Virus record (IMG/VR): IMGVR_UViG_3300020205_000619
Coordinates: 1 to 22,183 of that record
Strand: one strand, 5' to 3'
Origin: a virus
DNA length: 22,183 nt
The notes under the pieces were generated by a model. The model had not been told where the DNA came from, ran no database searches, and saw only the letters and a list, made by a program, of their open reading frames with translations. The stretch's first letter is position 1, and every line of letters begins with the position of its first letter. The position numbers were made by a program, and so were the translations under genes. This document shows, piece after piece, positions 3,801-22,183 of the stretch.

Positions 3801-3852
3801 GTATTTTGGCTTTTTGGAGTTAATATAGCCCCTTAAAAAGGGATCGAAAAGG

Positions 3853-3860: not shown

Positions 3861-3865
3861 TAAGC

Positions 3866-4814: not shown

Positions 4815-4835
4815 AGCGTCTCCTTAGATAACGCT

Positions 4836-4864
4836 AGTATATAACAGTTTTATTACAAGGTCAA
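4836..4864 (-). promoter_or_regulatory. Sigma70-type early promoter of the dNMP kinase gene
   Basis: On the minus strand, TTGACC (4859-4864) and TATACT (4836-4841) are separated by exactly 17 bases, very close to the bacterial consensus. It sits in the 56-base gap between the gp13 stop and the kinase ATG and should allow expression independent of the late genes. Confidence 0.8.
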
Positions 4865-4870
4865 GACTTT

Positions 4871-5656: not shown

Positions 5657-5673
5657 ATTTTGTTCTCCTAACA

Positions 5674-5681
5674 TATTTAGC
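5674..5681 (-). promoter_or_regulatory. Late-promoter-like motif for gp13
   Basis: The minus strand reads GCTAAATA, a common variant of the T4 late promoter, 17 bases before the chosen gp13 ATG. AGGAG lies between promoter and start, the normal arrangement. Confidence 0.55.
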
Positions 5682-5685
5682 TAGC

Positions 5686-5693
5686 GATAAATA
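5686..5693 (+). promoter_or_regulatory. Late-promoter-like motif for gp14
   Basis: GATAAATA ends four bases before the gp14 ATG at 5698. It lies back to back with the gp13 motif, so about 20 bases would drive both neck genes. No Shine-Dalgarno sequence precedes the ATG, so the message may be leaderless or nearly so. Confidence 0.55.
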
Positions 5694-5697
5694 TCAT

Positions 5698-7196
5698 ATG
5701 CCAAGACTATCTCTATATAAGCCAAATCCCGGACAAGATTATAAGTTTCTAGACCGGCAAATTTCCGAAATGTTTCAAGCGGGCGGAACTGACATCTACT
5801 TGCACAAGTACCTCGGTCCTAAAATTGCCAGTGAAGGTACTGCTGATCAGCCTATCTACGATGCTGTGAAAGAAACGAATATACAAGATTTGTTGTTCCT
5901 TGAAAACAGAGATCGCAAGTACGAATCTGAAATTTACAGGATGCGCACCATATACGCTGTCCAACAAACTGACTGGAATTTAAGCCAATTTGGCTTGTTT
6001 ATTGATAACGATACTATTAATATCAGTGTTCACATTAATGATATTATCAAAACAATAGGTAGAAAACCCTTGTCCGGCGATGTATTTGAATTGCCGCATT
6101 TGAAAGATCTATTTGCATTAAATGATCTAAGTGTGGGCATGCCTAGGTACTATGTTATCGAAGATGTAACTTTAGAAAGCGGTGGTTATAGCGTCACATG
6201 GTACCCTCATTTATACAGATTAAAGTGCAAACGTATCTTAGATTCTCAACAATTTGCCGACATATTAGACAAGCCAGCTACAGATGCTGATGGCAATCCA
6301 ATGGTTGACAGCAATGGAAATACCACAACATCTTTGAGAGATTTACTAAGTGTCCACAACAAAGAACTAGCAATTAACGATGCAATATTACAACAAGCTG
6401 AAGTAGATGCTCCTAAAAGTGGCTACGAGACTCGACAATTTTACACAATGGCTGTTGACCCGCTTACTGGCAAACCGTTATTACAAACTGTAGATGAAAC
6501 TGAATTAGATGCCACCAATACTTCTTACAATGCCAGTGCTACAGTAAATCGACCACTCCGCACTGGCTATGCTGGATACTTAGTTGGCGATGGATTTCCG
6601 TCAAATGTCAGCGATCCTGCTATGTTTGGGCACGGAATAAATTTCCTCCAAGTGCTGGACAGGATGATTATTTTTTAAGAACAGATTTTTTACCTAACAG
6701 ATTATTTAGGTTTGATACTGGCAGATGGATTAAAGTTGAAGATGCTGTGCGAATGAATATGACTAACGACGATTCTAGAAATACGCAAAAAACTGGATTT
6801 ATCAACAATACCGATTATATCTATAACAATATTATTATTTCGGATCAGATTGTGTTGGCAGTGGATCAATTTGTTATAGACACTGACATAGAATATATTC
6901 CAGCAAATATCAACTTTGCAGAATTGTATGTCGAGTTTAAACAATCAATTTTACAATTTGGTTTGCCAGTGGAAGTTATTTCAGCTAATCCGTTAGTTGC
7001 GTATGCTAACATTCTTAGTAATAACAACGGTAAAATTAGAATTACATTGCCACTGATAAACAATGCACAACAAAAAATACAAACAAGCGGAATATGGCGT
7101 GTCAGTTTATGTCGTAATAGAGAAGCTGTAAGACAAAGTCTCAGCAAGGCTCTGCGACCCGGTAATGGCAGGCCAACTTTAGAGGCAGATGTATAA
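5698..7196 (+). CDS. gp14: Neck protein, T4 gp14 family, in two frames joined by a -1 frameshift
   Basis: This is the neck protein that works with gp13 in head-tail joining. The first part (5698-6645) has gp14 hallmarks: MPRLSLYKPN, ISEMFQAGGTDIYLHKYLGP, LLFLENRDRKYESE, LSQFGLFI and ELPHLKDLF. Read straight on, it stops at 6678 after a non-family tail. The -1 frame from 6645 continues PPSAGQDDYFLRTDFLPNRL, then RWIKVEDAVRMNMT and a C-terminal RQSLSKALRP, as expected of cyanophage gp14, and ends at TAA 7194-7196. The joined product would be 499 residues. The switch point coincides with AAATTTC at 6639-6645. It is either programmed frameshifting or a lost C (mutation or assembly error). The stop overlaps the gp15 start by one base (TAATG). 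Confidence 0.85.
6639..6645 (+). promoter_or_regulatory. Candidate -1 ribosomal slippery site (A AAT TTC) in gp14
   Basis: In the gp14 reading frame the codons are ATA AAT TTC, giving X-XXY-YYZ = A-AAT-TTC. Slipping back one base lets both tRNAs re-pair on AAA and TTT, and the next codon becomes CCT, entering the frame that encodes the expected gp14 C-terminal part. A small hairpin (TCCT-CCA with TGG-AGGA, 6644-6664) lies too close to be a classical stimulator. A simple one-base deletion gives the same picture. Confidence 0.45.
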
Positions 7197-8650
7197 TGCA
7201 ACATTTTTATGATGGTCAGATTAGACGATATCTTACTCAGACAATTCGTGTCTTGAGTAATTTTGTTGTGAAATATGGCGACGGTACACTAGTGCGTATT
7301 CCAGTAATATATGGTGACCAGGACCGACAGGCTGCAAATATTATAAGACAAAATACTGCATCCACTGTTAGCAGTGTTCCGAGAATAGGCATTTACATAT
7401 CCGGACTAGACTTGGATTCTAGCAGGTTGGGAGACAGTAGTTTTATTGGTAAAATGCATATACGAGAACGCGGCATCGATGCTGAAGTAAACCAGTACAC
7501 GCAAGGCCAAGGACGTAACTATACAGTCGAGCGACTAATGCCGACTCCATTTAAGCTGACAATGAAAGCTGATATATGGACTGCGAACACTGATCAAAAG
7601 TTACAAGTGTTAGAACAAATACTAGTGCTGTTTAATCCTACATTAGAAATACAAACTACAGACAACTATGTTGACTGGACCAGTTTATCAGTATTGAGTA
7701 TCAGCTCGCTGTCTTGGAGTTCGCGCACAGTTCCTGTAGGAGCCGACACTCCAATTGACATTGCCACAATAACATTTGAGGCTCCTATATGGATTAGTCC
7801 GCCTGTTAAAGTCAAGCACCTTGGAGTTGTTACTAGCATTATCAACAGCATCTATAGAAATACAGACACTACCGCAGATAGTTATATCGATGGATTGGGC
7901 CAGCCGATGACTTCAGGTACTACCAATCTTTCAACAAACTTGTCTATAAATGTTATCACAGCATCAGACTATGTTATTCAAGTTTATAATGGCCAAGGTT
8001 CCCTGCTTTCACGTCGAGAAGGTTATACTCCAAGAGAACCTACATTAGAAATACCAGTGCGCGGTGGATCTCCTATTGCATGGACTGAATTGTTTGTCAA
8101 ATACGCTGATAAGTATGTTGCCGGGTCTAGTATGATTTATTTGATACAGCCTAACGGAACTGAAGTGGTAGGCACATTTGCCATTAACCCACTAGATGAC
8201 AACCTAATCACTATAACATGGGACGATGCTACATTCCCAACTAACGATTTGCTCGCGCCAACTGGCATAGAAGGTAATCGTGCCAACGGTCTAAGTGCAG
8301 GCACATTCGATGCTATTATCAACCCGCAGAAAGTATATCCTGGACACGGCATGCAAAACGTAGAAGCAGGTGATAGATTTTTAATTATCGATGATATCGG
8401 TTCTGCAATAAATCAAGACGGTGCCGATGCTTGGAAAAACGATAACGGCACTGATTTTGTTGCCCGTGCTAATGATATTATCGAGTGGAATGGCTCGGCT
8501 TGGAACATTGTATTCGACGCTCAAGAAGACAACCAGCACCTTGTGCAAACTAATATATACAGTGGCATTCAGTATGTGTGGAATAACATAATGTGGGCTA
8601 AATCTTTTGAGGGCGAGTACGCACCGGGATCATGGAGAATAGAATTGTAA
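7196..8650 (+). CDS. gp15: Tail sheath stabiliser / tail completion protein, T4 gp15 family, with C-terminal extension
   Basis: gp15 caps the head-proximal end of the tail, stabilises the sheath and docks to the neck. Residues 1 to about 220 match the T4 gp15 pattern: FYDGQIRRYLTQTIRVLSNF, VRIPVIYGD, VPRIGIYISGLDLD, RLMPTPFKLTMKADIWTAN, KLQVLEQILVLFNPTLEI and TFEAPIWISPPV. T4 gp15 is 272 residues. This product is 484, so about 250 residues are added, with Ser/Thr/Asp-rich strands and a Trp-rich end (IIEWNGSAW, YVWNNIMWA). The start overlaps the gp14 stop by one base, so translation is probably coupled. The last 19 bases overlap the Nudix gene. Confidence 0.9.
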   Translation: MQHFYDGQIRRYLTQTIRVLSNFVVKYGDGTLVRIPVIYGDQDRQAANIIRQNTASTVSSVPRIGIYISGLDLDSSRLGDSSFIGKMHIRERGIDAEVNQYTQGQGRNYTVERLMPTPFKLTMKADIWTANTDQKLQVLEQILVLFNPTLEIQTTDNYVDWTSLSVLSISSLSWSSRTVPVGADTPIDIATITFEAPIWISPPVKVKHLGVVTSIINSIYRNTDTTADSYIDGLGQPMTSGTTNLSTNLSINVITASDYVIQVYNGQGSLLSRREGYTPREPTLEIPVRGGSPIAWTELFVKYADKYVAGSSMIYLIQPNGTEVVGTFAINPLDDNLITITWDDATFPTNDLLAPTGIEGNRANGLSAGTFDAIINPQKVYPGHGMQNVEAGDRFLIIDDIGSAINQDGADAWKNDNGTDFVARANDIIEWNGSAWNIVFDAQEDNQHLVQTNIYSGIQYVWNNIMWAKSFEGEYAPGSWRIEL

Positions 8651-9081
8651 CAGATCGGATAGTATGCAGTGGAGCATTGATGTATGCTCGCGATACCCAA
8701 CGATTTTTATTGTTACAAAAAGCACATGGCAAACACAAGGGCACATGGGGCTTAGTGGGTGGTACTAACGAAGCAGGCGAGACTGCTTGGCAAGGATTAA
8801 AGCGTGAAATTTCTGAAGAAATTGGAGATTTTCCCAAAATAATCAAAACAATACCTTTAGAAACATTTGTTAGTAACGACCAAGTGTTTAATTTTCACAC
8901 CTACTTGTGCGTGATAGATAAAGAATTTATTCCAGTGTTGAGCGACGAACACTGCGGATGGGCGTGGTCAACAATCGATTATGCTCCTAAGCCTTTGCAC
9001 CAAGGTCTTAGAAATAGTTTTACTAATAAAATAATCAAGACTAAATTACAAACAATCTTTGATCTTATTGACTTGATTTAA
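8632..9081 (+). CDS. Nudix hydrolase
   Basis: This family cleaves a nucleoside diphosphate linked to another group (for example oxidised dNTPs, dCTP, ADP-ribose or NADH). The Nudix box is complete: G44, five residues, E50, seven residues, then R58-E-I-S-E-E-I-G65, with the metal-binding glutamates present. At 149 residues it is a single-domain enzyme; KGTWGLVGGTNEAGET before the box is typical of MutT-like members. It starts inside the end of gp15 (19-base overlap, other frame), and its last 17 bases overlap the end of the convergent halogenase-like gene. Nudix genes are common in T4-like phages and usually thought to manage nucleotide pools. The substrate cannot be read from sequence. Confidence 0.92.
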   Translation: MENRIVTDRIVCSGALMYARDTQRFLLLQKAHGKHKGTWGLVGGTNEAGETAWQGLKREISEEIGDFPKIIKTIPLETFVSNDQVFNFHTYLCVIDKEFIPVLSDEHCGWAWSTIDYAPKPLHQGLRNSFTNKIIKTKLQTIFDLIDLI

Positions 9082-10558
9082 TCATGTCGATCCACTGCTT
9101 GTGATCAACAGATGCCAATTCAACTGCCTGTTTAATCTTACGAATGTCTGCAGATACTTGTGCGGCACGAGCATATAGTCCCTGACTACGTAAAAAATGT
9201 TCAATGCGTGTGTTGTCTTTATACATACCATGGCCGTACGCGATACAATTAAAACTAGTCGATTCAAACATCCATCTATCGTCTTCGATATCCCGGTGTG
9301 TTATAAAACTGTGTTTTAGTTTTTCTTCCATGCTACAGAGCCAGCCAGGTTTATTTTCATCAAGATATCTCCAAAATTCTGAATCCGTTCTGCCAGTATT
9401 GTAGAAAAATCTTATGTATTTAAAACTGTTTTCGTATATAGCTTCTGCAAGCCTATTATAATTTTCAATATCAAATGCTAAATTCTTACCGTGATAGATT
9501 CTAACAAAATTGTCTACTTGTGTAATTAAATGATGTATACTAGTAGCTTCTAACGGTTCAACGAAGCCGCTAGCAAGACCCATGGCCACACAATTTCCAA
9601 TCCATAAATTTTTGAAATACCCATTACTAAAACTAATAACTCTGTCACTGGCTAATTCTACGTTGTGTGTTTTTAAAAGCCATTGATTAAAATCTTCCTT
9701 GGCTTCTTGATCTGTAGTAAATTTACTACTATATACGTAGCCAGTTCCCCTTCGATTAGATAGCGGTACATCTAAAATCCAACCATTTTTACTAGCTTCT
9801 GCTGTGGTGTATGGCGGAATACTATCAAATTCTTTGAACAGCGGATTAGGTATAGTTCTATTTGTAGGTAGTTGGTCTGAAATATCAACCCACTCGGGAT
9901 TAAGATTTTTAATTAAAGTTCTAGAATAGCCCGATGCATCGATAAAAATATCTGCCACAATTTCTTGCCCATCTTTAAGATGTATAGATGTAATATTCCC
10001 GTTTGCAACATTTACGCTATCGACAACTCCATCTATTATAGTCAGTTGATCTTTGAATTTATCTTCAACATACTTACTAAACAATGTTGCATCAACGTGC
10101 ATTGCATGACGATATTGTAAGTTGTTTGCAGACGGGATTGTATTATGTTCAAAATAATATTTGCCGTAATTATACGATCCGTCGTACTGATCGTGTAAAA
10201 TATCATAAGCATCAATGGCATTATAAAACATCAACGGCTGGTCGAGCCTTGCCAATGCATCGTTTAGTGGAAAACTGTGATACCATTCGCTGCCTTCGTG
10301 GGTCCAGTTTTTAAATTTTAAACCTAGTTTAATTGTTGCGTTGCAATGTTGTATCAACTCAACTGTTGTTATGCCAACTACTTTTAAATATGCATCAAAT
10401 ACAGGAGTTAAACTTTCACCGACACCAATTCCAGGAGTATTATGATCGTATATTACTCGTATATTAGCCAGTGGTCCCCAAAATGCTTTCATATATGAGG
10501 CGGCTATCATACCTGCGGTGCCTCCGCCCACTACTACAATATTATACTGGTTTTTCAT
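9065..10558 (-). CDS. Divergent flavin-dependent tryptophan-halogenase-like protein (copy A)
   Basis: This FAD-dependent enzyme of the tryptophan halogenase superfamily has 497 residues. Visible parts are the FAD dinucleotide-binding GGGTAG at 11-16, GIGVGES at 43-49, and a lysine at 77 in the N-A-T-I-K context that matches the catalytic lysine of PrnA/RebH (hypohalous acid relay). ASGFVEPLEATS at about 329-340 carries the conserved acidic region. The usual W-x-W-x-I-P motif is altered to GWILDVP (259-265), lacking the second Trp. Start and stop are linked to copy B: ATGA overlap with its stop, with GAGGA upstream. It is the last gene of the minus arm. It may be a halogenase with an unusual substrate or a flavin oxygenase. 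Confidence 0.82.
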   Translation of the reverse strand: MKNQYNIVVVGGGTAGMIAASYMKAFWGPLANIRVIYDHNTPGIGVGESLTPVFDAYLKVVGITTVELIQHCNATIKLGLKFKNWTHEGSEWYHSFPLNDALARLDQPLMFYNAIDAYDILHDQYDGSYNYGKYYFEHNTIPSANNLQYRHAMHVDATLFSKYVEDKFKDQLTIIDGVVDSVNVANGNITSIHLKDGQEIVADIFIDASGYSRTLIKNLNPEWVDISDQLPTNRTIPNPLFKEFDSIPPYTTAEASKNGWILDVPLSNRRGTGYVYSSKFTTDQEAKEDFNQWLLKTHNVELASDRVISFSNGYFKNLWIGNCVAMGLASGFVEPLEATSIHHLITQVDNFVRIYHGKNLAFDIENYNRLAEAIYENSFKYIRFFYNTGRTDSEFWRYLDENKPGWLCSMEEKLKHSFITHRDIEDDRWMFESTSFNCIAYGHGMYKDNTRIEHFLRSQGLYARAAQVSADIRKIKQAVELASVDHKQWIDMIKSSQ

Positions 10559-12015
10559 GCTTGTCCTCTTATTGCTTCTAGCATCTGTTTGTGTGTAATT
10601 GTATTATCCTGCATTGATTTATTTGTGTTTATTAAATCTTCTATTACTCCGTATGCATGTTCTCTCGCGCCTGGTGGCATTGTATTGTATTCATGAGTAA
10701 TACTATCTCGATCAAATAATCCAAGACCGTGCAAAATAAAAATAAAATGCAAATCTTTAAACAATACATACGGAGATACATCTCCAAAATCATCAGCAAC
10801 TGGCATTTTATGCCGCCATATATTCAAGTTTGTTTGCAAACTATCGGGTAATTTTACATCTGATACTTTTCTCCAAAACGCAGTATCGCGTCGAGGACAA
10901 ACAAAATGTAATAAAATAAAGTCCCGAATGTTGTGTACGATGTCAGTAAACGATTTGTTATATTTGTCTATTACATCTTGATTGTAATTTACAAGTTTGT
11001 GCATTAGTAAAAACGATTGCTGAATACTAGTTCCAATACTACTGGCTTCTAGAGGTTCGACAAAGCTACTGCTTAAACCAATTGCACAACAATTTTTAAT
11101 CCACGGTGTGTCAAGCGAGCCTGGATCAAATTTAATATGTTGTCCTATTTTTATTTCATGTCCTAACACACTCTCAACTTCTGCCTTGGCTTGATCAGGA
11201 GTTAAAAATTCATCATCGTAAATATAACCATTGCCCCATCTGCCAAATACAGGCGTGCGAAATAGCCAACCATAGTCCATGGCTTTTGCTAAACTCCACA
11301 TATTATAATTGTCAGTATCTGGTGTTTGAAATACTATAGCACTATTTGTCTTTAAATATTCTTTATGCGACACCCATTTTGCACCTAGCTTGCTAATTAA
11401 GAATTTCTTAAATCCAGTACAATCGATATAAAAATCGTATTTGTAAGTAGCATCTTCGCTTTGTAACTCGTCAATATCACCGCTAGCTGTTAATGTAGCA
11501 TCTGTTATTTCGTCGTGATAAATTGCAATATCCCTATCCAGTGCAATTTTTGTTAAGTAATCATTTAGTTTAAACGTATCAAAGTGATACTGTGCAACCG
11601 GTGATACATTATTTTCTAAGAACCATTTTTGTACCTTGTTATCCCAGAAGATTTCTCCGTTCATTTCTTTTGCAGGTGCACCATCGCTTACCATCTTACC
11701 AAAGATTATGGGATAATTTTTCTCCCATACTAAATTGTAGCCATCTTGTATACTATGCATATAGTCTGGTACTCCCCAGTCTTTAAACATAATACCTATC
11801 TTAAAAGTTGCATCGCAAGATTTGATCATCTCGCCTGCGTTTATTCCTACAAAGTTAGCAAAGTTTAACCAGTGCTCAGTCGAGCCTTCTCCTACTCCAA
11901 CAATCCCAATGCGTTTTGAACAAACAATATCTACCTGACTATCTGGGAATCGTTTCTTCATCATAAGAGCAGATACTAGTCCGGCGGTGCCGCTGCCTAC
12001 AATGCAAATTCTCAT
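10555..12015 (-). CDS. Divergent flavin-dependent tryptophan-halogenase-like protein (copy B)
   Basis: This 486-residue product starts at MRICIVG; I chose ATG 12015 because GGAGG lies six bases upstream and the ATG overlaps the previous stop (ATGA). An upstream in-frame start at 12039 has no such support. FAD motif GSGTAG is at 7-12, GIVGVGEG near 37-44, the catalytic-type lysine K72 in C-D-A-T-F-K, and LSSSFVEPLEASS at about 314-326. In place of W-x-W-x-I-P it has GWLFRTP (249-255), again without the second Trp. It shares layout with copy A but is clearly diverged, so this is an old duplication or two separate acquisitions. It is coupled at both ends by ATGA overlaps, implying the two proteins are made together. 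Confidence 0.82.
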   Translation of the reverse strand: MRICIVGSGTAGLVSALMMKKRFPDSQVDIVCSKRIGIVGVGEGSTEHWLNFANFVGINAGEMIKSCDATFKIGIMFKDWGVPDYMHSIQDGYNLVWEKNYPIIFGKMVSDGAPAKEMNGEIFWDNKVQKWFLENNVSPVAQYHFDTFKLNDYLTKIALDRDIAIYHDEITDATLTASGDIDELQSEDATYKYDFYIDCTGFKKFLISKLGAKWVSHKEYLKTNSAIVFQTPDTDNYNMWSLAKAMDYGWLFRTPVFGRWGNGYIYDDEFLTPDQAKAEVESVLGHEIKIGQHIKFDPGSLDTPWIKNCCAIGLSSSFVEPLEASSIGTSIQQSFLLMHKLVNYNQDVIDKYNKSFTDIVHNIRDFILLHFVCPRRDTAFWRKVSDVKLPDSLQTNLNIWRHKMPVADDFGDVSPYVLFKDLHFIFILHGLGLFDRDSITHEYNTMPPGAREHAYGVIEDLINTNKSMQDNTITHKQMLEAIRGQA

Positions 12016-12788
12016 ATAGTACCTCCACGGTAAGGACAATTTCCTTCTAGGGATTTAGATAGTAAGTCTCGAGTTAGTGAAGGTTTAAGAAACGTTTTTG
12101 CTCCAGTTGAGGTTTGAGTTTTCTTAATCCACTCTGCTTCGTCTATCACGTGTGTTTTTAATTCTATAGGTGTATCTGTTAACGGAATTATATGCACAAG
12201 TGGCATACCGAGCGGTAATACAAACTCCTGTGTAGTTGTAGGAATTTCAACAAACGTATGTAAATGCAAGGAATGTTGATTTTTAAAATCAACTACGCCA
12301 CCAGCTGGTGCAATCTTATTAATCCACATAGGATTGTCGTTAGTTGTCCAGTAGGGTTTTTGAATTAAAAATTTAACACCTGTAGATTCTTCTATGTGCC
12401 ACGGTAATACTATTTTTAAATGCTGATATCCCTGGAACCCATCCCATTGGCCGGGCCAGTGGCTTTCTAAGCTAAAAGGATTGTCAGCACTGATAAAAGA
12501 ATATCTCCCTTCTTGACTAATCATAACGCTGACGTCAGTCCACAACGGTGCCATAAATCCTGTTTTAAAATAATCTATTACTCCTGGACACCCTTTAATA
12601 GTGCCGGAAGGAATTTTGTGTACCTGACCCGAGCCCGGATTTCTTCGTTCTTCGATACGCTCACCTGGTATTTTTCGTAACCAGTCGGGATAAAATCTTA
12701 TGGATGGCAAAATAGGTGCTGTTTTTTCTATAATAGCATCGTATGTAAAGCAATCAAGAACTAATTTTTTTTGTTTAAAGAAAAACAT
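12012..12788 (-). CDS. Conserved-looking protein of unknown function, Trp/Pro-rich
   Basis: I do not recognise a characterised family with certainty; it resembles unnamed proteins found in marine phages and bacteria. The 258 residues have no signal peptide or membrane helix. Visible stretches include RFYPDWLRKIPGE (31-43), TIKGCPGVIDYFKTGFMAPL (63-82), WPGQWDGFQGYQHLKIVLPW (111-130), VVDFKNQHSLHLHTFVEIP (165-183) and LPLGMPLVHIIPLT (191-204). The last part looks like a small beta barrel with a P-x-G-x-P-L-V-H turn, and the His pairs could bind metal, but no known triad is evident. It sits two bases after an oxygenase gene and overlaps the copy B start by ATGA, so its product is probably needed with those enzymes. 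Confidence 0.8.
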   Translation of the reverse strand: MFFFKQKKLVLDCFTYDAIIEKTAPILPSIRFYPDWLRKIPGERIEERRNPGSGQVHKIPSGTIKGCPGVIDYFKTGFMAPLWTDVSVMISQEGRYSFISADNPFSLESHWPGQWDGFQGYQHLKIVLPWHIEESTGVKFLIQKPYWTTNDNPMWINKIAPAGGVVDFKNQHSLHLHTFVEIPTTTQEFVLPLGMPLVHIIPLTDTPIELKTHVIDEAEWIKKTQTSTGAKTFLKPSLTRDLLSKSLEGNCPYRGGTI

Positions 12789-12790: not shown

Positions 12791-13450
12791 TTAAAGTTTA
12801 ACACCTAAGTTGCCGGAGATTGATATTCTATAATCGTCGGATGTAAAAAATGGGTTGACGCTGTGTGTTAATCCTGCTGGAAAAAATAGCATCCTTCCTT
12901 GAAATGTTTGATCTACTGGGATAGGCCATCCACTATGCATGCCTAATATATTAGAATAGTGAAATGTAAACTTTGAAGTTTTATTATTTTCGACTCCAAC
13001 ATCCGGAAACACTTTATACTCTTCTTCTAGTAAATACGGAATATTGATCCAAATTACAAAACTAAAGATTCCGGTATGCAAATGTGGCGGATTAAATTCG
13101 TGTTTCTTTTGAAAATTTACCCAAAGATCTTTTAATCTTAGTTGCGTTGAATCGTTGAAAACACCTATATCTACTTGACGGCTATACATCCATCTTTCGT
13201 CATACAATTTGGCTGCGTGGCAAACTAAAGGTTCTAGCGCATCCCAACATGTTTTGTCTAAAACATATTCGTGTTTTAAATGCCCTACAAGTTTATTTTG
13301 GAATCCAGGTGCTGACTTAAAATTATCTTTATAAATCCGGTCTGCCGAAGAAGATAAAATTTGCATAATATCTTCAGGTACTTGAATATCGAGTACGCCG
13401 ATATTTGGCATGTCTCTGTATGTAATGTGTAAGTCGCTTTTTATTGCCAT
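12791..13450 (-). CDS. Putative 2-oxoglutarate/Fe(II)-dependent oxygenase, paralogue 2 of a tandem pair
   Basis: The likely double-stranded beta-helix oxygenase has 219 residues. The iron-site region is N-P-P-H123-L-H125-T-G followed by FSFVIW. The distal half has H196-S-V-N-P-F, and R208 in the DYRISISGN strand, spaced as expected for 2-oxoglutarate binding. The first site is H-x-H, not the classical H-x-D/E, as is common in one branch of phage oxygenases. It is closely related to the gene at 13460-14122 (shared LRLKDLWVNFQKKHEFNPPH and KFTFHY blocks). AGGA lies before the ATG. The substrate is unknown; its position upstream of two flavoenzymes suggests hydroxylation or another oxidative step in the same pathway. 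Confidence 0.72.
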   Translation of the reverse strand: MAIKSDLHITYRDMPNIGVLDIQVPEDIMQILSSSADRIYKDNFKSAPGFQNKLVGHLKHEYVLDKTCWDALEPLVCHAAKLYDERWMYSRQVDIGVFNDSTQLRLKDLWVNFQKKHEFNPPHLHTGIFSFVIWINIPYLLEEEYKVFPDVGVENNKTSKFTFHYSNILGMHSGWPIPVDQTFQGRMLFFPAGLTHSVNPFFTSDDYRISISGNLGVKL

Positions 13451-13459: not shown

Positions 13460-14122
13460 TTAAGCTGACAATCTTAAATTGCCTGCTACTGAAATTCTAA
13501 ACTCGTCAGATGTATAAAACGGATTTACACTATGATTTAAGTGCGACGGAAATAGTGCTATATTGCCTTCAAATTCTTTGTCTACATTAAGTGTATAATG
13601 TTGCATCTGTCCAAGTACGTTTACATAATGGAATGTAAATTTACTAGTACGGGTTGGGCCGCTTTTTATTTCAGGAAATACTTTCTCTTCTTCTTTTAAA
13701 TCGTACGGGATACTGATCCATATAACAAAACTCATGATTCCAGTGTGCGTATGGGGAGGATTAAATTCATGTTTCTTTTGAAGGTTGACCCATAAATCAG
13801 TTAGTCTTAATTGCTTGGGTACTGATACATTAAATTGCTCGTCAAGAGCTTGAAAATAATTCCACTTTTCATTATACAGCGATGCCACATATAACAAAAA
13901 CGGTTCTAAAATAGGTATACAAGTATCCAGGCCAAATTCGTGACTCATATGACCTAACAACAAATTTCGATAATCAAACGCCGAGTCAAAATTGTTATCC
14001 ATCATGCGTTTGATTTCTGTATTTAACGCAGCCATAACGTCTTTAGGCACTTGCGCTAATAGAACTCCATACGTTGGAAGTTCTCGAAAATCAACCATTA
14101 TTTTATCAAGTGTTTGGGTCAT
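13460..14122 (-). CDS. Putative 2-oxoglutarate/Fe(II)-dependent oxygenase, paralogue 1 of a tandem pair
   Basis: This is the first gene of the minus arm, 220 residues. It has N-P-P-H124-T-H126-T-G then MSFVIW, KFTFHY at 161-166, H197-S-V-N-P-F-Y and R209 in EFRISVAGN. The domain order and the H-x-H...H...R pattern match its neighbour, and the pair clearly arose by tandem duplication. Similarity begins at the first residues (MVDFRELPTYGVL against ITYRDMPNIGVL), supporting the start at 14122 although no good Shine-Dalgarno sequence is visible. It is nine bases from the next gene and probably heads a five-gene transcript running to 9065. Confidence 0.72.
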   Translation of the reverse strand: MTQTLDKIMVDFRELPTYGVLLAQVPKDVMAALNTEIKRMMDNNFDSAFDYRNLLLGHMSHEFGLDTCIPILEPFLLYVASLYNEKWNYFQALDEQFNVSVPKQLRLTDLWVNLQKKHEFNPPHTHTGIMSFVIWISIPYDLKEEEKVFPEIKSGPTRTSKFTFHYVNVLGQMQHYTLNVDKEFEGNIALFPSHLNHSVNPFYTSDEFRISVAGNLRLSA

Positions 14123-14210: not shown

Positions 14211-15803
14211 ATGCTAAACAAACATATCAAAAAAATTGTAATTGTAGGAGGTGGGTCTGCTGGATGGATGACTGCTGCCACACTTATTAGATTTTTTCCA
14301 AATAACGATATTTCGGTGATAGAAAGCCCAGATATTCCGATTGTAGGAGTAGGTGAAAGCACATTAGGCGGCATACGACACTGGACCCATGCACTAGGAA
14401 TTGATGAAAAAGATTTCATGGAATATACCAACGCTTCCTATAAGTTAAGTATTAAATTTACCGATTTCTATGATAAAGATTACGGATCTTTTCACTATCC
14501 GTTCGGTGGGCCAATACTTACCGATGCTCCAGAAGGATTAAATGAATGGCCTGCCAAGAAAATATTCTACCCAGAGACTCCGGTGGAAGATTATTGCAGA
14601 ACATACTATGCACAAATGCCGTTGGTCGAGGGCAACAAATATAGCCGCAACGAAGATGGTGACATTGATGGGTTCCGACCAGAAAAAGACGTAGCATATC
14701 ACTTTGATGCTCAATTGTTTGGTAGGTGGTTGCGTGAAAGATATTGTTTGCCACGTGGTGTAAAACATATCTCGGAGACGGTTGTTAATACTGTAACTAA
14801 CAACGATGGCATTGAAAAATTAATTCTGGAATCGGGCGAAGAAATTAGCGCAGATTTATTTGTTGACTGTACCGGCTGGAAGAGTATGTTGCTAGGTGAT
14901 GCATTGAAAGAACCATTCACTTCGTATTCAGACATACTACCAAACAACAGGGCATGGGCGGTACAAATACCGTACGAAAATCCTGAAAAAGAAATAGAAC
15001 CGTACACTAACTGCACAGCCATTGGACATGGATGGTGTTGGAATATACCACTATGGAGTCGCCTGGGCACGGGCTACGTTTATAGTGACAAGTTTATTAG
15101 CCCAGAAGATGCTAAAGAAGAATTCAAAGAATACTTAATGAGCAGTAAAATGACTATTCCTAGAACACGCGAGCAAGTAGATGCGTTAACTTATAGAGAT
15201 ATTAGTATGCGTATCGGAATCCACGAGCGCACGTGGGTTAAAAACGTAGTTGCTATTGGGTTAAGTGCAGGATTTATTGAGCCATTAGAATCAAATGGGT
15301 TATTTACTGTTCACGAATTTTTAATGTTATTAGTAGCTGCCTTGGATCGTCCTCATATTGCACAATGGGACCGTGACGGTTATAATACTGCGGCCTTATC
15401 TATTTTTAGAAACGTAGCAGAATTTGTGGCCATGCATTACGCACTAAGTGCTCGAAATGATACTAATTACTGGCAAGCTATTTCTAATAAAACATTTAGC
15501 CCAGAAATGGTTAAAAGATTACCTACTATTAATCGAGGATTTGCAGACTTAGTTGATAAAAAATTCTTCCTTTTTGGACATGCAGGTACCGGCGGAATAC
15601 ATTGTGTTGCAACAGGGTTGAACTATATGGTAATGAACCGTTTAAACATATTACATGCGGAGTTCCAGTACGGAAATAATCCAAAAAGACACCTTGACGA
15701 ATTCGTATTTAGACGTAAGTTTTTACAGGCAAAGTGGCAAGCAGCCGCTGACAGATCTCCTAGTTTATTCCAATATTTAAAGGATAATATATATGGTAAC
15801 TGA
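14211..15803 (+). CDS. Flavin-dependent tryptophan halogenase, canonical motif set
   Basis: This protein uses FADH2, O2 and halide to form a hypohalous species that is relayed through a lysine to an electron-rich substrate such as an indole. The 530-residue length matches PrnA/RebH-type enzymes. Motifs are all present: GGGSAGW at 13-19, GVGEST at 46-51, K78 in N-A-S-Y-K, GWCWNIPLW at 273-281 (the W-x-W-x-I-P signature), and LSAGFIEPLESNG at 350-362. It has a strong ribosome site (GAAGGA). The partner flavin reductase is not in the window and may come from the host. The next oxygenase gene starts 11 bases before its stop. Family membership is near certain; free tryptophan as substrate is not. 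Confidence 0.92.
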   Translation: MLNKHIKKIVIVGGGSAGWMTAATLIRFFPNNDISVIESPDIPIVGVGESTLGGIRHWTHALGIDEKDFMEYTNASYKLSIKFTDFYDKDYGSFHYPFGGPILTDAPEGLNEWPAKKIFYPETPVEDYCRTYYAQMPLVEGNKYSRNEDGDIDGFRPEKDVAYHFDAQLFGRWLRERYCLPRGVKHISETVVNTVTNNDGIEKLILESGEEISADLFVDCTGWKSMLLGDALKEPFTSYSDILPNNRAWAVQIPYENPEKEIEPYTNCTAIGHGWCWNIPLWSRLGTGYVYSDKFISPEDAKEEFKEYLMSSKMTIPRTREQVDALTYRDISMRIGIHERTWVKNVVAIGLSAGFIEPLESNGLFTVHEFLMLLVAALDRPHIAQWDRDGYNTAALSIFRNVAEFVAMHYALSARNDTNYWQAISNKTFSPEMVKRLPTINRGFADLVDKKFFLFGHAGTGGIHCVATGLNYMVMNRLNILHAEFQYGNNPKRHLDEFVFRRKFLQAKWQAAADRSPSLFQYLKDNIYGN

Positions 15804-16401
15804 TTTATATCCGTTATTTGCTAGTCCTGTGATAACGGTAGATCACGACGATGCTGAACTCGGTAGTATTATCCAATATTGTAAAAGTCAATTAGAGTAT
15901 AAAATCAATAAAGGCGGAAATTTTACCAGTCTTAATACTGATGTATTTTCGTTAGATGCATTTGCTGCAATCAAAGCACTTGCTCTCGAGTCTGTAAAAG
16001 TATATACTAAAGAAGTTATGCAATGGGCAGATGGTCCTGAATTTTTTATCACTCAATCTTGGGTTAATAAAAACCCAACAGGTACTACGCACCATGAACA
16101 TTATCATCTTAACACATTGTTCAGTGGTGTTTTTTATTTAGAAACAGCCACGCCTGATTATATTTCGTTTTTTAGCGGTAAACAACCTTACATGAAATTC
16201 TACGAAGATGAAAAGAACATATGGAATAGTGATAGGTACGATTTGCTAGTAAAGCCTGGACGTTTTGTAATATTCCCCGCTAGCATTTTGCATAGTGTAG
16301 GAGAAAACCTTGCAACTCACGAAAGAATTAGTGTTGCGTTCAATGTGTTTGTTAAAGGACAAATTGGAAGTAAAGAACATTTAACTTATTTGGAATTATA
16401 A
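15793..16401 (+). CDS. Putative 2OG-Fe(II) oxygenase (2OG-FeII_Oxy_5-like), copy 1
   Basis: The 202-residue single-domain protein begins with the family's typical LYPLFASPV strand. Core features are FFITQSWVNKNPTGTTHHEH, the iron-site H103-Y-H105-L-N followed by FSGVFYL, the strand VIFPASILHSV with H167, and R178 in ERISVAFNVFVKG. This H-x-H-x-N...SGV-[FY]-Y pattern is characteristic of a family common in cyanophages and marine bacteria. The gene overlaps the end of the halogenase by 11 bases, implying coupled expression and a shared substrate pathway. It is related to the gene at 17335-17943. The reaction is probably hydroxylation; the substrate is unknown. Confidence 0.82.
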   Translation: MVTDLYPLFASPVITVDHDDAELGSIIQYCKSQLEYKINKGGNFTSLNTDVFSLDAFAAIKALALESVKVYTKEVMQWADGPEFFITQSWVNKNPTGTTHHEHYHLNTLFSGVFYLETATPDYISFFSGKQPYMKFYEDEKNIWNSDRYDLLVKPGRFVIFPASILHSVGENLATHERISVAFNVFVKGQIGSKEHLTYLEL

Positions 16402-16405
16402 AAAT

Positions 16406-17338
16406 ATGAAAAGAAATACTGCATTTTTAATTAATGGCGGGGCTGGTAGAGTAATATGTTCAATCCCTGCGTTTGAACTATACGAAAAGGAAAATCCCGA
16501 AGACGATTTTGCTATTGTTGTAGAGGGATTTTTAGATCTGTTTAAAGGCCATCCGTCGTTGTATAAACGTGCGTATGAGTTTGGACATCGCAGATTATTT
16601 GAAGATAAGTTAAAAAATATGGATTTTATTTCACCCGAGCCGTATCAAGTTTGGGAATATTACAATCAACAAGCATCTATATCACAAGCATTTGATATTG
16701 CTATTAATCATCAAGGAGTTCGACCGTTGCCTAAGCCCACTGTTGAATTAACTACTGAAGAAAAGTTAGGCGGTGAAGAAACTCTTAAAAATATAAGAAA
16801 AGATTTCAATAATAAAAAAGCAATTGTTTTCCAGCCGTTTGGCCGTGGTTCAAATCTACACAACACACACATAGACAATGGTGGTAGATCGTTCCTGCCG
16901 GAGCATGCTGCTAAGTTGATTAAACGATTACAGAAAAAATATTGTGTAATTGTTATGGATGAAAAACAACTAGATTTTAAAGCTCTCGGTTGCGAAGAAG
17001 CAGTTGTTCAACTTACTAACATGACCTTACGTAGATGGATGGGGGTAATTGCTGCTTCTAGCTATTTCATTGGCTGCGATAGTGTAGGACAACATATGGC
17101 TTACGCTTTGGATACACCTGCTACTGTTGTACTAGGGTCTACGTTTAAAGAAAATGTGTCCTACGATTCTAAAAAGATTTCCATAATTGATTTAGGCGAA
17201 AGCAAAAAAATGTATAGTCCTATTCGTATGTGCCATAATGAAATTGCAGATGTAAACAATGAAAAACTAATGCATCTGAGCGACAAAGATTACGACAAGA
17301 TTATTTCTAGTATCGAGGCTGGCATTATCAAAGTATGA
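16406..17338 (+). CDS. GT9-like (heptosyltransferase-type) glycosyltransferase
   Basis: The 310-residue product has the two-domain layout of GT-B enzymes of family 9. The N-terminal half opens with FLINGGAGRVICSIPAFELY (7-26), a nucleotide-sugar enzyme glycine loop. The C-terminal half has IVFQPFGRGSN (140-150) and YFIGCDSVGQHMAYAL (220-235), matching the GT9 donor-site pattern (x-G-x-D-S/T-x-x-x-H-x-A-x-A), then PATVVLGST. No membrane segment is seen, as usual for these peripheral enzymes. It is four bases from the preceding oxygenase and overlaps the next by ATGA. It may add a sugar to a surface glycan or to the product made by its neighbours; donor and acceptor are unknown. Confidence 0.78.
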   Translation: MKRNTAFLINGGAGRVICSIPAFELYEKENPEDDFAIVVEGFLDLFKGHPSLYKRAYEFGHRRLFEDKLKNMDFISPEPYQVWEYYNQQASISQAFDIAINHQGVRPLPKPTVELTTEEKLGGEETLKNIRKDFNNKKAIVFQPFGRGSNLHNTHIDNGGRSFLPEHAAKLIKRLQKKYCVIVMDEKQLDFKALGCEEAVVQLTNMTLRRWMGVIAASSYFIGCDSVGQHMAYALDTPATVVLGSTFKENVSYDSKKISIIDLGESKKMYSPIRMCHNEIADVNNEKLMHLSDKDYDKIISSIEAGIIKV

Positions 17339-17943
17339 AAGACTTTAGCATAATTCCACTGTTCCCATTGGCGTTATATAAGTCAAAATTTAGGGAGTTA
17401 AGCCATCTAGAATTAGATACTATAACTACGTACCCGGTTGAAAAGCAGCCTCTTGGAAATAGCAGTTCTCAAGCACCGTATTTTTTAGATACAGCTGGAC
17501 TAGAACAACTAAAATCCGACATAGATCAGCACGTAGACACGTATGTTAAAGAAGTAATGAAAGCACCGTATGAAGTTTATCTTACTAATTCTTGGAAAAA
17601 CTTGACATCGCAGAATGAACAACATATAATGCATAATCATACTAATAGTGTGATTTCTGGAGTATTGTATATTAAATCAAGTTACATACAGCCCACTATT
17701 TCATTCCACAGAATGCAGCCTCCTTACTTGTTGTCTTGGGAGCCAACTGAGTTTAACACATTCAATTCTATGGAATGGACTGTGCCAGTTGAAGATGGAG
17801 ATATTATTATTTTTCCCTCTACACTATTCCATTATGTTAAACCTAACATAAGTAACAAGGATAGGATAAGTGTTGCATTTAATACATTTGCTCGCGGACA
17901 TATAAAAACAGAATCAGCAGGTGCTGATTTAATTTTAAATTGA
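17335..17943 (+). CDS. Putative 2OG-Fe(II) oxygenase (2OG-FeII_Oxy_5-like), copy 2
   Basis: Like copy 1 it has 202 residues and the same fold: an IIPLFPLALY opening strand, YLTNSWKNLT, the iron-site H97-I-M-H100-N-H102-T-N followed by VISGVLYI, DGDIIIFPSTLFHYV with H166, and R177 in DRISVAFNTFARG. Identity with copy 1 is concentrated in the C-terminal third, so these are old paralogues. The start overlaps the glycosyltransferase stop by ATGA, so translation is probably coupled. The carbamoyltransferase begins two bases after its stop. It likely oxidises the same scaffold at another position, or a different substrate; the sequence does not tell. Confidence 0.82.
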   Translation: MKDFSIIPLFPLALYKSKFRELSHLELDTITTYPVEKQPLGNSSSQAPYFLDTAGLEQLKSDIDQHVDTYVKEVMKAPYEVYLTNSWKNLTSQNEQHIMHNHTNSVISGVLYIKSSYIQPTISFHRMQPPYLLSWEPTEFNTFNSMEWTVPVEDGDIIIFPSTLFHYVKPNISNKDRISVAFNTFARGHIKTESAGADLILN

Positions 17944-17944
17944 G

Positions 17945-19738
17945 ATGAATATGAATAAAAAACCAGTATGGATTGCTAGTATTGCACGTGGACATAATGC
18001 TAGTGTATGCTTGCTCAAAGATGGAGAGATTGTATTCTCTATCGAGGAAGAACGACTAAGCAGACATAAGTACGACGGCGGGCCGTATGCGTCTATGATT
18101 AAAATCCTAGATTATACTAAAGAATTAGATTACCTTGTAATTGCACATACACAATCATTGGCTGATACTGCTGGAAAAGTTGATTTTACAGGTGACGATG
18201 TATACACAGGCCTTGCTAGGAAATTAGGACTAATTCGTAGAAAAGAAAATATCTACAATCATCCACAAGTTATCGATTTAAGCCATATACATCACAAGTT
18301 GCATGCAGCTTGTGCATTTTATCGAAGCGGGTTTAAAGATGCAGTTGCAGTTATCGTTGACGGTGCTGGAACATTTTTACCGCTATCAGTAAACGGAGAA
18401 AATGTGATTGGTTGGGAAACTGAAAGTATTTACAAGTGTGCATACCCTAGTGAATTTGAAACATTATACAAGCATATAGGTGTGCGTGGGCCAAGCCCCG
18501 GACAACTAATTAAAGATTTCGATAGCAGTATGTATGACGAGCCGGGAAAAACACACCATGCACTAATTACAGACCGTGCAGGAATTACTAAAGTTTACGA
18601 AGCAGTTACACAGTACTGCGGCTGGAGTCCTATTGAAGCTGGAAAAACTATGGGACTATTCCCTTATGGAAAAGATAACCCAGCAATTCCCCGATTGTTT
18701 GATGACTCTAGTGTTGCTCCGTTAGCCAACAGGAATCTAATTGTTCCAACTTATCCAAATGCAGCACTTGTTAATATTGGATTGTTTGATTACTTAAATC
18801 AGCATAACAGTTCAGATGTTACACTTTTAGAAAATAGACGAGACTTAGCATATGCTTGCCAAACACAAACACAAGATCAAGTTGTTAGAGTAATTCGAAA
18901 AGCTGTCGAAATGTCAGGCAATAAAAATGTTGTTTTAAGTGGCGGATACGGATTAAATTGCGTTGCAAATTATCATTATTTGCAAGCATTAAAAGATGAA
19001 GGTATTAATTTTTATGTAGAGCCTATTAGTAATGATGCTGGAACTGCAATAGGTGCAGCTTTAATGCATTGGTACAAACTCACCGGTTCTAATCATATAT
19101 GTAAACACGATACATTGTATTTAGGCCCTAAACATACATATACCACTGATCAAGTTATAGATATAGCATATCAACCGGGTGTTGATATTCAAGATGCTAC
19201 ATACAAAGACATTGTCGAATTGCTTACTAAGAAAAATATTGTTACGGTTTTCCAAGGATCGAGCGAAAACGGTCCAAGAGCACTGGGCAATAGAAGTGTT
19301 ATATTTGATCCTCGATTTGTCGACGGTAAGGATTATGTCAACGAAGTTAAACACCGTGAATACTTTAGGCCGTTTGCTGGTAGTATTTTAGCAGAATATG
19401 CACACGAGTGGTTTGATCTGCGTGGGATGAAAGATAGTCCGTTTATGATGTATGCTGTGAATTGCCAGCCTGGGATTGCTGAAAAGATTCCAAGTATTAT
19501 TCACGTAGATGGCACTTGCCGTATACAAACAGTCACAGAAGAACAGAACTTTCACTACTACAATTTAATTAAAGAGTTTCATAATGAAACTGGATGTCCA
19601 ATATTGTTTAATACTAGTTTTAACTTAGGTGGAGAACCTCTAGTTGAAACATTAGAAGATGCTATTTGGACTTTACAAAATTCCGATATCGACTATTTGT
19701 TCTTACCGGAGTTTAATAAACTAATAACTGTAAAATAA
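17945..19738 (+). CDS. Carbamoyltransferase, NodU/CmcH family
   Basis: This enzyme transfers a carbamoyl group from carbamoyl phosphate via carbamoyl-adenylate to a hydroxyl, as in Nod factors, cephalosporins and tobramycin. The 597 residues comprise both expected domains. The N-terminal Kae1/TsaD-like domain has GHNASVCLLKDGEIVFSIEE (16-35), the His-rich DLSHIHHKLHAA (111-122), VDGAG (138-142) and LSGGYGLNCVANY (331-343). The C-terminal YrdC-like domain has ENGPRALGNRS (441-451), REYFRPFAGS (471-480) and FNTSFNLGGEP (555-565). A second ATG six bases in may be the true start, since GAG sits in better position for it. Such genes occur in cyanomyoviruses. Its acceptor might be a hydroxyl made by the flanking oxygenases. 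Confidence 0.93.
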   Translation: MNMNKKPVWIASIARGHNASVCLLKDGEIVFSIEEERLSRHKYDGGPYASMIKILDYTKELDYLVIAHTQSLADTAGKVDFTGDDVYTGLARKLGLIRRKENIYNHPQVIDLSHIHHKLHAACAFYRSGFKDAVAVIVDGAGTFLPLSVNGENVIGWETESIYKCAYPSEFETLYKHIGVRGPSPGQLIKDFDSSMYDEPGKTHHALITDRAGITKVYEAVTQYCGWSPIEAGKTMGLFPYGKDNPAIPRLFDDSSVAPLANRNLIVPTYPNAALVNIGLFDYLNQHNSSDVTLLENRRDLAYACQTQTQDQVVRVIRKAVEMSGNKNVVLSGGYGLNCVANYHYLQALKDEGINFYVEPISNDAGTAIGAALMHWYKLTGSNHICKHDTLYLGPKHTYTTDQVIDIAYQPGVDIQDATYKDIVELLTKKNIVTVFQGSSENGPRALGNRSVIFDPRFVDGKDYVNEVKHREYFRPFAGSILAEYAHEWFDLRGMKDSPFMMYAVNCQPGIAEKIPSIIHVDGTCRIQTVTEEQNFHYYNLIKEFHNETGCPILFNTSFNLGGEPLVETLEDAIWTLQNSDIDYLFLPEFNKLITVK

Positions 19739-20259
19739 TGATTAAACAATTCGACACTTTTACAGAAAATTGGCTGCATACTCAGGCTAAAGAACAACTA
19801 CTAAATCCTGGACTGGATTGGAATTTTCCCACGTTTGGTGCAAGCGATACTAATTTAGAGAATGCATGTTTTGGCAGATGTGCATTTAATCTAAGTAACA
19901 ACCACGTTAACTGGAATAGAGTCGAATCTCTAACATACGTATTTGATAGTTGGTTAGACCGTAATAAAGATTGGTTTAAAATTGAAAGTCTTGGGAGATG
20001 TATGATGAATTTTTATGCCAATGGACAACAAACTGTATGGCATACTGATAATCATTATAATATACCTGGGTTGTATAGCTTACTGTACTATGTAGATGAT
20101 AGCAGTGGTGGCACAGAGTTTGAAAATCAAGTAGTTTTACACAAAGAAAATACTGGAGTATTTTTTAATTCTCATATGCTACACCGTCCAATTGTTTCTA
20201 CACATCCTCGACGCATAAGTGTAAGCTGGGTTATGAAAGGAACTATCATAAATGGTTAA
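19738..20259 (+). CDS. Putative 2OG-Fe(II) oxygenase (prolyl-4-hydroxylase-like), copy 1
   Basis: This 173-residue protein has a complete classical facial triad: W101-H102-T-D104 followed by LYSLLYYVDDSSGGTEF, then HMLHRP with H149, and R158/R159 in PRRISVSWVMKG as the 2-oxoglutarate anchor. The spacing and the GG-T-E-F turn match phage and bacterial P4H-like oxygenases, which often hydroxylate amino-acid side chains. The ATG overlaps the carbamoyltransferase stop by one base (TAATG), and its end overlaps the next paralogue by eight bases. It is clearly related to the gene at 20252-20761 and distinct from the H-x-H oxygenases upstream. Confidence 0.86.
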   Translation: MIKQFDTFTENWLHTQAKEQLLNPGLDWNFPTFGASDTNLENACFGRCAFNLSNNHVNWNRVESLTYVFDSWLDRNKDWFKIESLGRCMMNFYANGQQTVWHTDNHYNIPGLYSLLYYVDDSSGGTEFENQVVLHKENTGVFFNSHMLHRPIVSTHPRRISVSWVMKGTIING

Positions 20260-20761
20260 ACATTTTAACAATATGTTACCTGCTTGGCTATACGGCAGAG
20301 TACTAAATCAAACATTAAATCCTGCAATAGGATGGCACTTTCCTGGAAACGGCGGATATCATGGAGACATAGATAAATCATGTTTTGCTGCTATGATGTT
20401 CGACGAAGAACGAAATTATTCAGACTGGCAAAATACCGAATCATTAAAGTATGCACTAGACTACTGGGTTGATGCAAATAAGGATTGGTTTAAATTTGAA
20501 AGACTTAACAGATGTATCTTAAATTTCTATACTCCTGGTATGACTATAGGATGGCATACTGATCATAGTAAAGATAATCATTTCACACTAATTTATTATA
20601 TCAATGAGTCCGACGGAGGAACTGAATTTAAAGACGTAAAAATACCGCATGTTGCAAACAGCGGTATTTTATTAAAATCAAAGGACTCACATAAAAATAT
20701 AGAGTCCTCTGTTCCTCGACGTATAAGTGTCGCTTGGATTATAGTGGGCGAACTGATTTAA
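20252..20761 (+). CDS. Putative 2OG-Fe(II) oxygenase (prolyl-4-hydroxylase-like), copy 2
   Basis: This 169-residue product is a tandem duplicate of the preceding gene. It shares the opening motif (KHFNNMLPAWLYGRVLNQ against KQFDTFTENWLHTQAKEQ), ALDYWVDANKDWFKFERLNR and the iron site W101-H102-T-D104-H. The distal site is H147 in KDSHKN with R156/R157 in PRRISVAWII. The GG-T-E-F turn is conserved. It begins inside the previous gene and is the last gene of the plus arm. Its stop overlaps the stop of the convergent tail chaperone by four bases, and a terminator-like hairpin for the other strand lies within its coding sequence. Confidence 0.86.
   Translation: MVKHFNNMLPAWLYGRVLNQTLNPAIGWHFPGNGGYHGDIDKSCFAAMMFDEERNYSDWQNTESLKYALDYWVDANKDWFKFERLNRCILNFYTPGMTIGWHTDHSKDNHFTLIYYINESDGGTEFKDVKIPHVANSGILLKSKDSHKNIESSVPRRISVAWIIVGELI
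20639..20670 (-). terminator. Terminator-like hairpin inside the last oxygenase gene, likely serving the minus-strand tail operon
   Basis: A perfect 10-bp inverted repeat (AAAATACCGC at 20639-20648 with GCGGTATTTT at 20661-20670) has a 12-base loop. On the minus strand the 3' arm runs into five T, and the hairpin sits about 88 bases beyond the chaperone stop. It lies wholly inside the plus-strand oxygenase coding region. The plus strand also has four T after the stem, so weak bidirectional action is possible. Confidence 0.55.
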
Positions 20762-21304: not shown

Positions 21305-22183
21305 TTAAGCACTTCCTGATGGGTAGCATCTTCCAGTTGTGGGCCAAACAATACGCACTGCGCCTTTGCCGCCAAAACCGCCGCCGTGTGATGTACCTGA
21401 TCCACCACCACCACCGCCGTATGATCCTCCACAGTTGTAGCCGTGACCTTGTCCATTACTCCATGGTTCTCCCGGAATACCTTGCTCACCATTAGAGCCG
21501 CCACCGCCACCAGATCCAGTTTGATGGGTTGCTGGTGCTCTAGTATTGCCGCAAGTACCGTTTTGTCCTTGTCCTGTAATTCCAGTTCCACCGCCACCGC
21601 CTGTTCCGTATGTAGAACTGTGATGCGAACCAGCTGAGCCACCGCCGCCGAAACAGCCTGTGTGGCCGGAGTTACTATACCAGCACTGGTTAGGGCCATA
21701 GCCGCCACCGCCGCCACCGCCACCTGCGGTGTTAGGGAATGTAATAGTACCTGGGCCACCGCCACAGGTGCCGCCGCCGCCAGCAATACAGCCGCAACCA
21801 GTACAGCAACCACAATGGCCGCCACCGCCGATAATACCTGGGAAACATGACATTCCGCCAGCGGATTGGCTCCAACATCCGCCATTTCCTGCTTGCACAG
21901 TATAACCAGAACCGGGGCTAACCGATACGTTATTAGCGTATGATAAGCCACCTCCACCGCCACCACAAACGGCCCAGCCAAAATAGCCACCACCGCCACC
22001 GCCGATAACAGCTACGTTAACTGCAGTTACTCCTGGAGGAGCAGTCCATGTGTAAGCAGCAGTTCCGCCGTTGGCGCCAGATTGTGTACCTTGATATAAA
22101 GCCTGCCCTGGTGCAACATAAACTGCACCATAAAATGATGCTGATTGAACAATACACAAACATTGGAAACATGCACATGAAAC
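21305..22183 (-). CDS. Glycine- and cysteine-rich tail fibre / adhesin, C-terminal part (N-terminus outside window)
   Basis: The frame is open to the right edge with no ATG in frame; a TTG at 22159 is not a convincing start because coding character continues upstream (C-A-C-F-Q-C-L-C). After a beta-type module (TWTAPPGVTAVNVAVIGGG) come many Gly runs separated by Cys-, His-, Ser- and Tyr-containing loops, for example HCGCCTGCGCI. The end is KGAVRIVWP, a typical closing strand of glycine-rich phage fibre domains, as in fibres whose tip is a polyglycine-II sandwich. The adjacent assembly chaperone supports a receptor-binding role. The many cysteines, over a dozen in the visible part, are unusual. 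The Ala/Val-rich reading in another frame is an artefact of the repeats. Confidence 0.85.
   Translation of the reverse strand, partial: VSCACFQCLCIVQSASFYGAVYVAPGQALYQGTQSGANGGTAAYTWTAPPGVTAVNVAVIGGGGGGYFGWAVCGGGGGGLSYANNVSVSPGSGYTVQAGNGGCWSQSAGGMSCFPGIIGGGGHCGCCTGCGCIAGGGGTCGGGPGTITFPNTAGGGGGGGGYGPNQCWYSNSGHTGCFGGGGSAGSHHSSTYGTGGGGGTGITGQGQNGTCGNTRAPATHQTGSGGGGGSNGEQGIPGEPWSNGQGHGYNCGGSYGGGGGGSGTSHGGGFGGKGAVRIVWPTTGRCYPSGSA

Follow-up and report, generated by a model that had tools for sequence, protein, structure and literature searches.

Two adjoining genes of an uncultured tailed phage, here called A and B, encode members of the known flavin-dependent halogenase (FDH) family that, judged from their sequences, form two phage-specific subfamilies in which the signature motif WxWxIP has changed convergently. 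The genes lie in a 22,183-base fragment of an uncultivated virus (IMG/VR record IMGVR_UViG_3300020205_000619; hereafter the window), which also carries tail sheath, tail tube, head-tail adaptor and tail-fibre assembly genes. The second Trp of the motif is replaced by Leu in A and by Phe in B. We favour, with moderate confidence, the reading that both proteins are intact two-component halogenases that use reduced flavin adenine dinucleotide (FADH2) and have a reshaped acceptor site; they are probably remodelled rather than ruined enzymes. The features of the two genes are as follows.

9065..10558, minus strand: gene A, 497-aa flavin-dependent halogenase-fold protein with GWILDVP, FVEPLEATS, K77 and E337
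9764..9784, minus strand: codons of A GWILDVP at the W-x-W-x-I-P position; Leu262 replaces the second Trp; aligned to RebH G281-P287
9539..9565, minus strand: codons of A FVEPLEATS at the FxxPxxSxG position; S to A, G to S
10555..12015, minus strand: gene B, 486-aa flavin-dependent halogenase-fold protein with GWLFRTP, FVEPLEASS, K72 and E323; start ATG at 12015
11251..11271, minus strand: codons of B GWLFRTP; Phe252 replaces the second Trp and Thr254 replaces Ile
11038..11064, minus strand: codons of B FVEPLEASS; S to A, G to S
10555..10558, minus strand: ATGA, the B stop overlapping the A start

Fold and motifs of A and B

The Pfam Trp_halogenase profile (PF04820) scored 299 bits for A, 276 for B and 360 for gene C, a third halogenase gene in the window, against a cut-off of 21, and A and B both belong to PHROG 2928. 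An earlier note on this DNA had reported the loss of the second Trp in A and B compared with GWCWNIP in C, and its open reading frames, coordinates and motifs proved correct. The motif reads G259-W260-I261-L262-D263-V264-P265 in A and G249-W250-L251-F252-R253-T254-P255 in B, so neither has the full signature of both Trp, Ile and Pro. The Phe, Pro, Ser and Gly of FxxPxxSxG, a second published halogenase signature (PMC8407142; PMC7336383), are likewise incomplete in both. The GxGxxG flavin motif is present as GGGTAG in A and GSGTAG in B. The catalytic Lys (RebH K79) and Glu (RebH E357) are retained as K77/E337 in A and K72/E323 in B, in agreement with the note's assignment of the lysine. Its view that the FVEPLE region is kept applies to the catalytic Glu but not to the Ser and Gly of FxxPxxSxG. 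The first Trp of WxWxIP (RebH W282) is also retained, together with Glu. According to the alignment, RebH W282 would be the counterpart of Thal Trp283, which contacts Glu355 beside the flavin (PMC7948982).

AlphaFold2 models were built for A and B from alignments of 49 and 21 rows, respectively. The full-length models had pLDDT 93.5 and pTM 0.91 for A, and pLDDT 89.2 and pTM 0.89 for B. Against PyrH, the A model gave Z 43.6 over 479 residues at 2.6 Å and the B model Z 42.6 over 471 residues at 2.4 Å. Z was about 42-44 for solved Trp halogenases, which matched along nearly the entire chain, 35-36 for VirX1 and 26-27 for the CndH/Bmp2 group. As modelled, A and B have the complete halogenase fold over their full length. 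They share this whole-length fold, GxGxxG, the GxGE loop, the first Trp, Lys and Glu with the variant A FDHs PrnA, RebH, PyrH and Thal (PF04820), but at about 25% identity they differ at the second Trp, at the motif Ile (Val in A, Thr in B) and at FxxPxxSxG, which has Ala for Ser and Ser for Gly.

Evolution of the second-Trp replacement

Viral relatives were gathered using B and an alignment of A orthologues; searching viral contigs with A as the only query returned no relatives, and the alignment did recover them. In a tree of 100 phage proteins the second Trp was lost in three separate changes, and the count was the same after the motif columns had been removed. The A clade (n=27) has Leu at this position in 26 proteins and Phe in one, and the B clade (n=18) has Phe in all. 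The third, short clade (n=7) consists of proteins of about 400 residues, all with Phe (GWMFGIP and similar). Short-clade genes, with GWMFGIP and FFEPLEALS, were seen on L040, L048, L071, L078, L109 and L026 and on contigs G001-G006. All 100 phage relatives, among them the 52 that lack the second Trp, retain the catalytic Lys, and Lys and Glu of the site that receives hypohalous acid (HOX) are invariant across A and B. In every A- and B-clade protein, Ala replaces the motif Ser, and the motif Gly has given way to Ser or Asn. Both changes are also seen in proteins keeping the second Trp, so they do not suffice to predict that it is lost.

The sister of A is a canonical clade (GWIW[QR]IP, mostly FVEPLESTG) that contains Synechococcus phage S-SRM01. 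The S-SRM01 halogenase, the closest isolate relative of A at 40% identity, differs from A in retaining GWIWQIP and FVEPLESTG and is located within the tail-fibre operon. The nearest outgroups of B (P-SSM2, S-H38 and L023) also retain the second Trp. The P-SSM2 and S-H38 halogenases are the closest isolate relatives of B (41-42% identity) and already have FVEPLEATS, but unlike B they keep GWSWQIP and GWSWHIP. The Trp-less form was found in none of the seven phage isolates whose motif was read (S-SRM01, S-H38, P-SSM2, Syn10, S-PM2, HTVC008M and S-RIM44).

A first scan of genome contigs for relatives of A and B found none, and 80 loci were kept from a broader scan, all cellular halogenases of about 29-36% identity. 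In a cellular sample picked by two conserved patterns, which is no census, the second Trp is kept in 125/127 relatives, and both exceptions also lack the Lys. Distant cellular halogenase-like proteins with GW[MV]GMFP and without the catalytic Lys were seen at L123 3398-4951 and L191 6503-8038; these are probably not halogenases. Because the substitution is fixed in deep clades and is missing from 125/127 cellular relatives, it is not due to chance. By sequence comparison, the replacement is old, fixed and convergent in separate lineages.

A and B are both under purifying selection, with dN/dS of about 0.03-0.12 for orthologue pairs where synonymous sites are unsaturated. A pseudogene or frameshift origin was rejected, as the frames are open and dN/dS is well below 1. 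Between A and its canonical sister clade there are ten clean switch positions, among them (RebH numbering) W284 to Leu, I286 to Val, M288 to Leu, T51 to Leu and T258/Q259 to Asn-Pro, and in addition a sister-clade Trp that is Phe431 in A. Three of the ten (W284, I286 and M288) lie in or beside the WxWxIP stretch and one (T51) directly past the GxGE loop. No compensating conserved Trp was found near the motif in the sequence; the possibility raised in the earlier note that a Trp is restored from elsewhere is, as far as sequence goes, answered in the negative near the motif. An altered active site in A and B is likely, because the loss of Trp is fixed, convergent and coupled with changes in the second motif and at other switched positions.

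Probable chemistry of A and B

With the flavin-binding elements, the first Trp and the catalytic Lys and Glu kept, A and B most likely still generate HOX at the flavin, from where it would reach the Lys/Glu site. The smaller side chain in place of the second Trp would reshape the wall that separates flavin and acceptor and make it less bulky, and the acceptor would thus probably differ from that of Trp halogenases. We prefer halogenation to oxygenation mainly because the Lys is retained throughout. The cellular relatives without the second Trp also lost the Lys, so its retention in A and B suggests halogenase-type chemistry. All saturation mutants of Thal Lys79 were inactive in halogenation (PMC7948982). 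Ser or Asn also takes the place of the FxxPxxSxG Gly in known active enzymes, namely BrvH and the Xcc enzymes including Xcc4156 (PMC7336383), although BrvH, unlike A and B, retains WxWxIP (PMC5945002). FDHs without the full WxWxIP are also known and include active halogenases (PMC8407142), and hence the motif, which the earlier note described as considered diagnostic for flavin halogenases, is not strictly so. The altered chemistry suggested in that note is upheld as a likely change of the active site, but a change of chemistry is unsupported, since the Lys and Glu required for the HOX step have been kept in all cases.

Several points weigh against halogenation by A and B. WxWxIP has been published as blocking oxygenation (PMC10696468), so its loss could mean oxygenation. 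The lost Ser of FxxPxxSxG is one of three residues that are superposable in PrnA, PyrH and Thal (PMC7948982), and the Lys could be kept for some other reason. A and B may then have turned into flavin monooxygenases in which the acceptor, unhindered by the second Trp, reaches the C4a-hydroperoxyflavin and is hydroxylated. WxWxIP has been proposed as a substrate shield that prevents hydroxylation (PMC10696468; PMC8407142), and FxxPxxSxG is changed in A and B alike. QhpG, like A and B a halogenase-like flavoprotein, is a monooxygenase of the halogenase fold that dihydroxylates Trp within a protein, a precedent for oxygenating a protein Trp (PMC7876137). However, QhpG resembles CmlS-type enzymes and lies on a separate branch, closest to CmlS and not close to A or B; A scored 16.3 bits against the QhpG model NCBIfam NF049967, whose cut-off is 240, and B was not listed. 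The first Trp is retained, and the invariant Lys and Glu of the HOX site have no obvious role in a hydroxylase. We give this conversion a low probability, below that of halogenation.

A smaller probability still is given to the idea that A and B are ordinary halogenases in which the second Trp is irrelevant and was lost by neutral drift, with pocket and target unchanged. WxWxIP variants do occur among FDHs and Phe is a mild change. Leu or Phe is fixed across deep clades, however, each replacement is accompanied by FxxPxxSxG changes and, in A, by other switched positions, and the Trp is retained in nearly all cellular relatives (125/127). Remodelled halogenases remain our preferred reading.

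The gene pair, its surroundings and a possible target

The overlap of B and A is present in every adjacent pair found, nearly always as ATGA and as TAATGA in L052/L053, which confirms the linkage noted before; A proteins of such pairs differ by up to about 48%. The protein encoded immediately upstream (phrog_7084) is coupled to B by a further ATGA, so phrog_7084, B and A would be produced together from one translationally coupled string. A and B probably serve one target, either at adjacent sites or in consecutive steps, and would be structurally independent of each other. Contigs G003-G006 (50-121 kb) have A, C and the short-clade gene but no B, B is the sole halogenase on G009 (147 kb), and no B adjoins the A-clade genes of the GWILQVP half. 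Because each occurs without the other, A and B are often co-expressed but not obligate partners, and the heteromer suggested earlier does not hold as a rule. An obligatory heteromer in which each protein completes the active site of the other is very improbable: the conserved overlap and the selection on both genes would fit it, but A and B occur apart, each possesses its own FAD motifs, Lys and Glu, and overlapping halogenase pairs are also found in Syn10 and S-RIM44.

To our knowledge, VirX1 of cyanophage Syn10 is the first characterised viral halogenase. It is the second gene of the Syn10 pair and, as in the case of A and B, another halogenase gene overlaps it and phrog_7084 is found alongside. 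Unlike them, VirX1 retains GWVWNIP and FIEPLESTG and groups with gene C. VirX1 is active alone and was crystallised as a trimer (PMC8407142), which also speaks against an obligatory heteromer. The phrog_7084 protein of the window (12012-12788, minus strand) has homologues adjoining VirX1 in Syn10 and the halogenase pair of S-RIM44, and it is a possible halogenase partner. The other genes around the pair are the following, where 2OG-Fe(II) denotes 2-oxoglutarate- and Fe(II)-dependent enzymes.

12012..12788, minus strand: phrog_7084 protein; its gene shares an ATGA overlap with B
12791..13450, minus strand: 2OG-Fe(II) oxygenase (2OG-FeII_Oxy_5), same gene string as B and A
13460..14122, minus strand: 2OG-Fe(II) oxygenase (2OG-FeII_Oxy_5), same gene string as B and A
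14211..15803, plus strand: gene C, canonical VirX1-clade halogenase with GWCWNIP and FIEPLESNG
15793..20761, plus strand: rest of the cluster, with 2OG-Fe(II) oxygenases at 15793, 17335, 19738 and 20252, a GT9-like protein at 16406 and a NodU-type carbamoyltransferase at 17945
20758-21282, minus strand: tail-fibre assembly chaperone, adjoining the Gly/Cys/Trp-rich tail protein
21308..22183, minus strand: incomplete Gly/Cys/Trp-rich tail protein (phrog_4474-like), candidate protein target

The cluster thus contains three halogenases, several 2OG-Fe(II) oxygenases, the GT9-like protein and the NodU-type carbamoyltransferase. The protein at 20252-20761 (plus strand) carries the PHROG family label 'DNA endonuclease V', which looks wrong, against a Pfam 2OG-Fe(II) oxygenase match just below the curated cut-off. 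The same gene classes (halogenase, carbamoyltransferases and 2OG-Fe(II) oxygenases) occur together in the S-SSM6a-type jumbo cyanophage cluster, which as described has no Trp-less halogenase pair; its authors proposed a secondary-metabolite or capsule-decoration system (PMC7824862).

The canonical sister clade of A points to the tail. In 14/14 loci examined, some of them close kin, the order is a long fibre protein, a tail protein of about 650 residues, the halogenase, a Gly-rich protein and a small protein (L030 (S-SRM01) 360-10932, L080, L082, L083, L085, L086, L091, L094, L095, L102, L104, L105, L106 and L111). The tail assignments were confirmed by profiles in the loci scanned. The Gly-rich protein, directly downstream of the halogenase, has an insert with invariant Cys and Trp, and the S-SRM01 record calls it a gp37-gp38 adhesin tip complex. 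Gly-rich, His-rich (2-4%) tail proteins were also seen directly upstream of the halogenase pairs of Syn10 (L033 5821-7445) and S-RIM44 (L036 5197-7486).

The tail protein at 21308-22183 of the window (minus strand) has about 17 Cys and 6 Trp in 292 residues; its homologues on related contigs have 598-767 residues, and no match was found among phage isolates. Homologues are present on six long contigs with A. On the four contigs tested, the homologue is no more than about 1.3 kb away from the halogenase cluster and closest to the short-clade gene, not to A or B; on G001, G002, G004 and G005 the short-clade gene adjoins the Gly-rich tail protein. Halogenase-adjacent adhesins contain more Trp than others (1.84 vs 1.05%, p 3e-5 without correction for kinship), but as evolution this enrichment is not significant, as it reflects only 3-4 independent changes. 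Nearness of halogenases to Gly-rich proteins in 7 isolate genomes and 5 long contigs gave a combined p of about 0.02-0.03, with clear exceptions in P-SSM2, S-PM2, the third S-RIM44 copy and G010. Statistical support for a virion-adhesin target is thus weak to modest. Only tentatively do we propose that several phage halogenase clades, including A and B, modify aromatic residues of their own Gly-rich tail adhesins together with the neighbouring 2OG-Fe(II) oxygenases, the modification being halogenation or hydroxylation by A and B.

Searches for halogenases make use of WxWxIP, and the choice between halogenation and oxygenation has been ascribed to it, yet a review describes the role of its residues as unclear (PMC10696468). 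The second Trp has been replaced three times naturally in enzymes that are otherwise conserved, and canonical relatives exist with which A and B can each be compared; the role of the motif is therefore directly testable. The gene neighbourhoods suggest tail adhesins as a testable target of phage halogenases. If true, modification of the adhesin would provide phages with a receptor-binding tip that is chemically modified, and would supply the natural role so far missing for VirX1-type enzymes.

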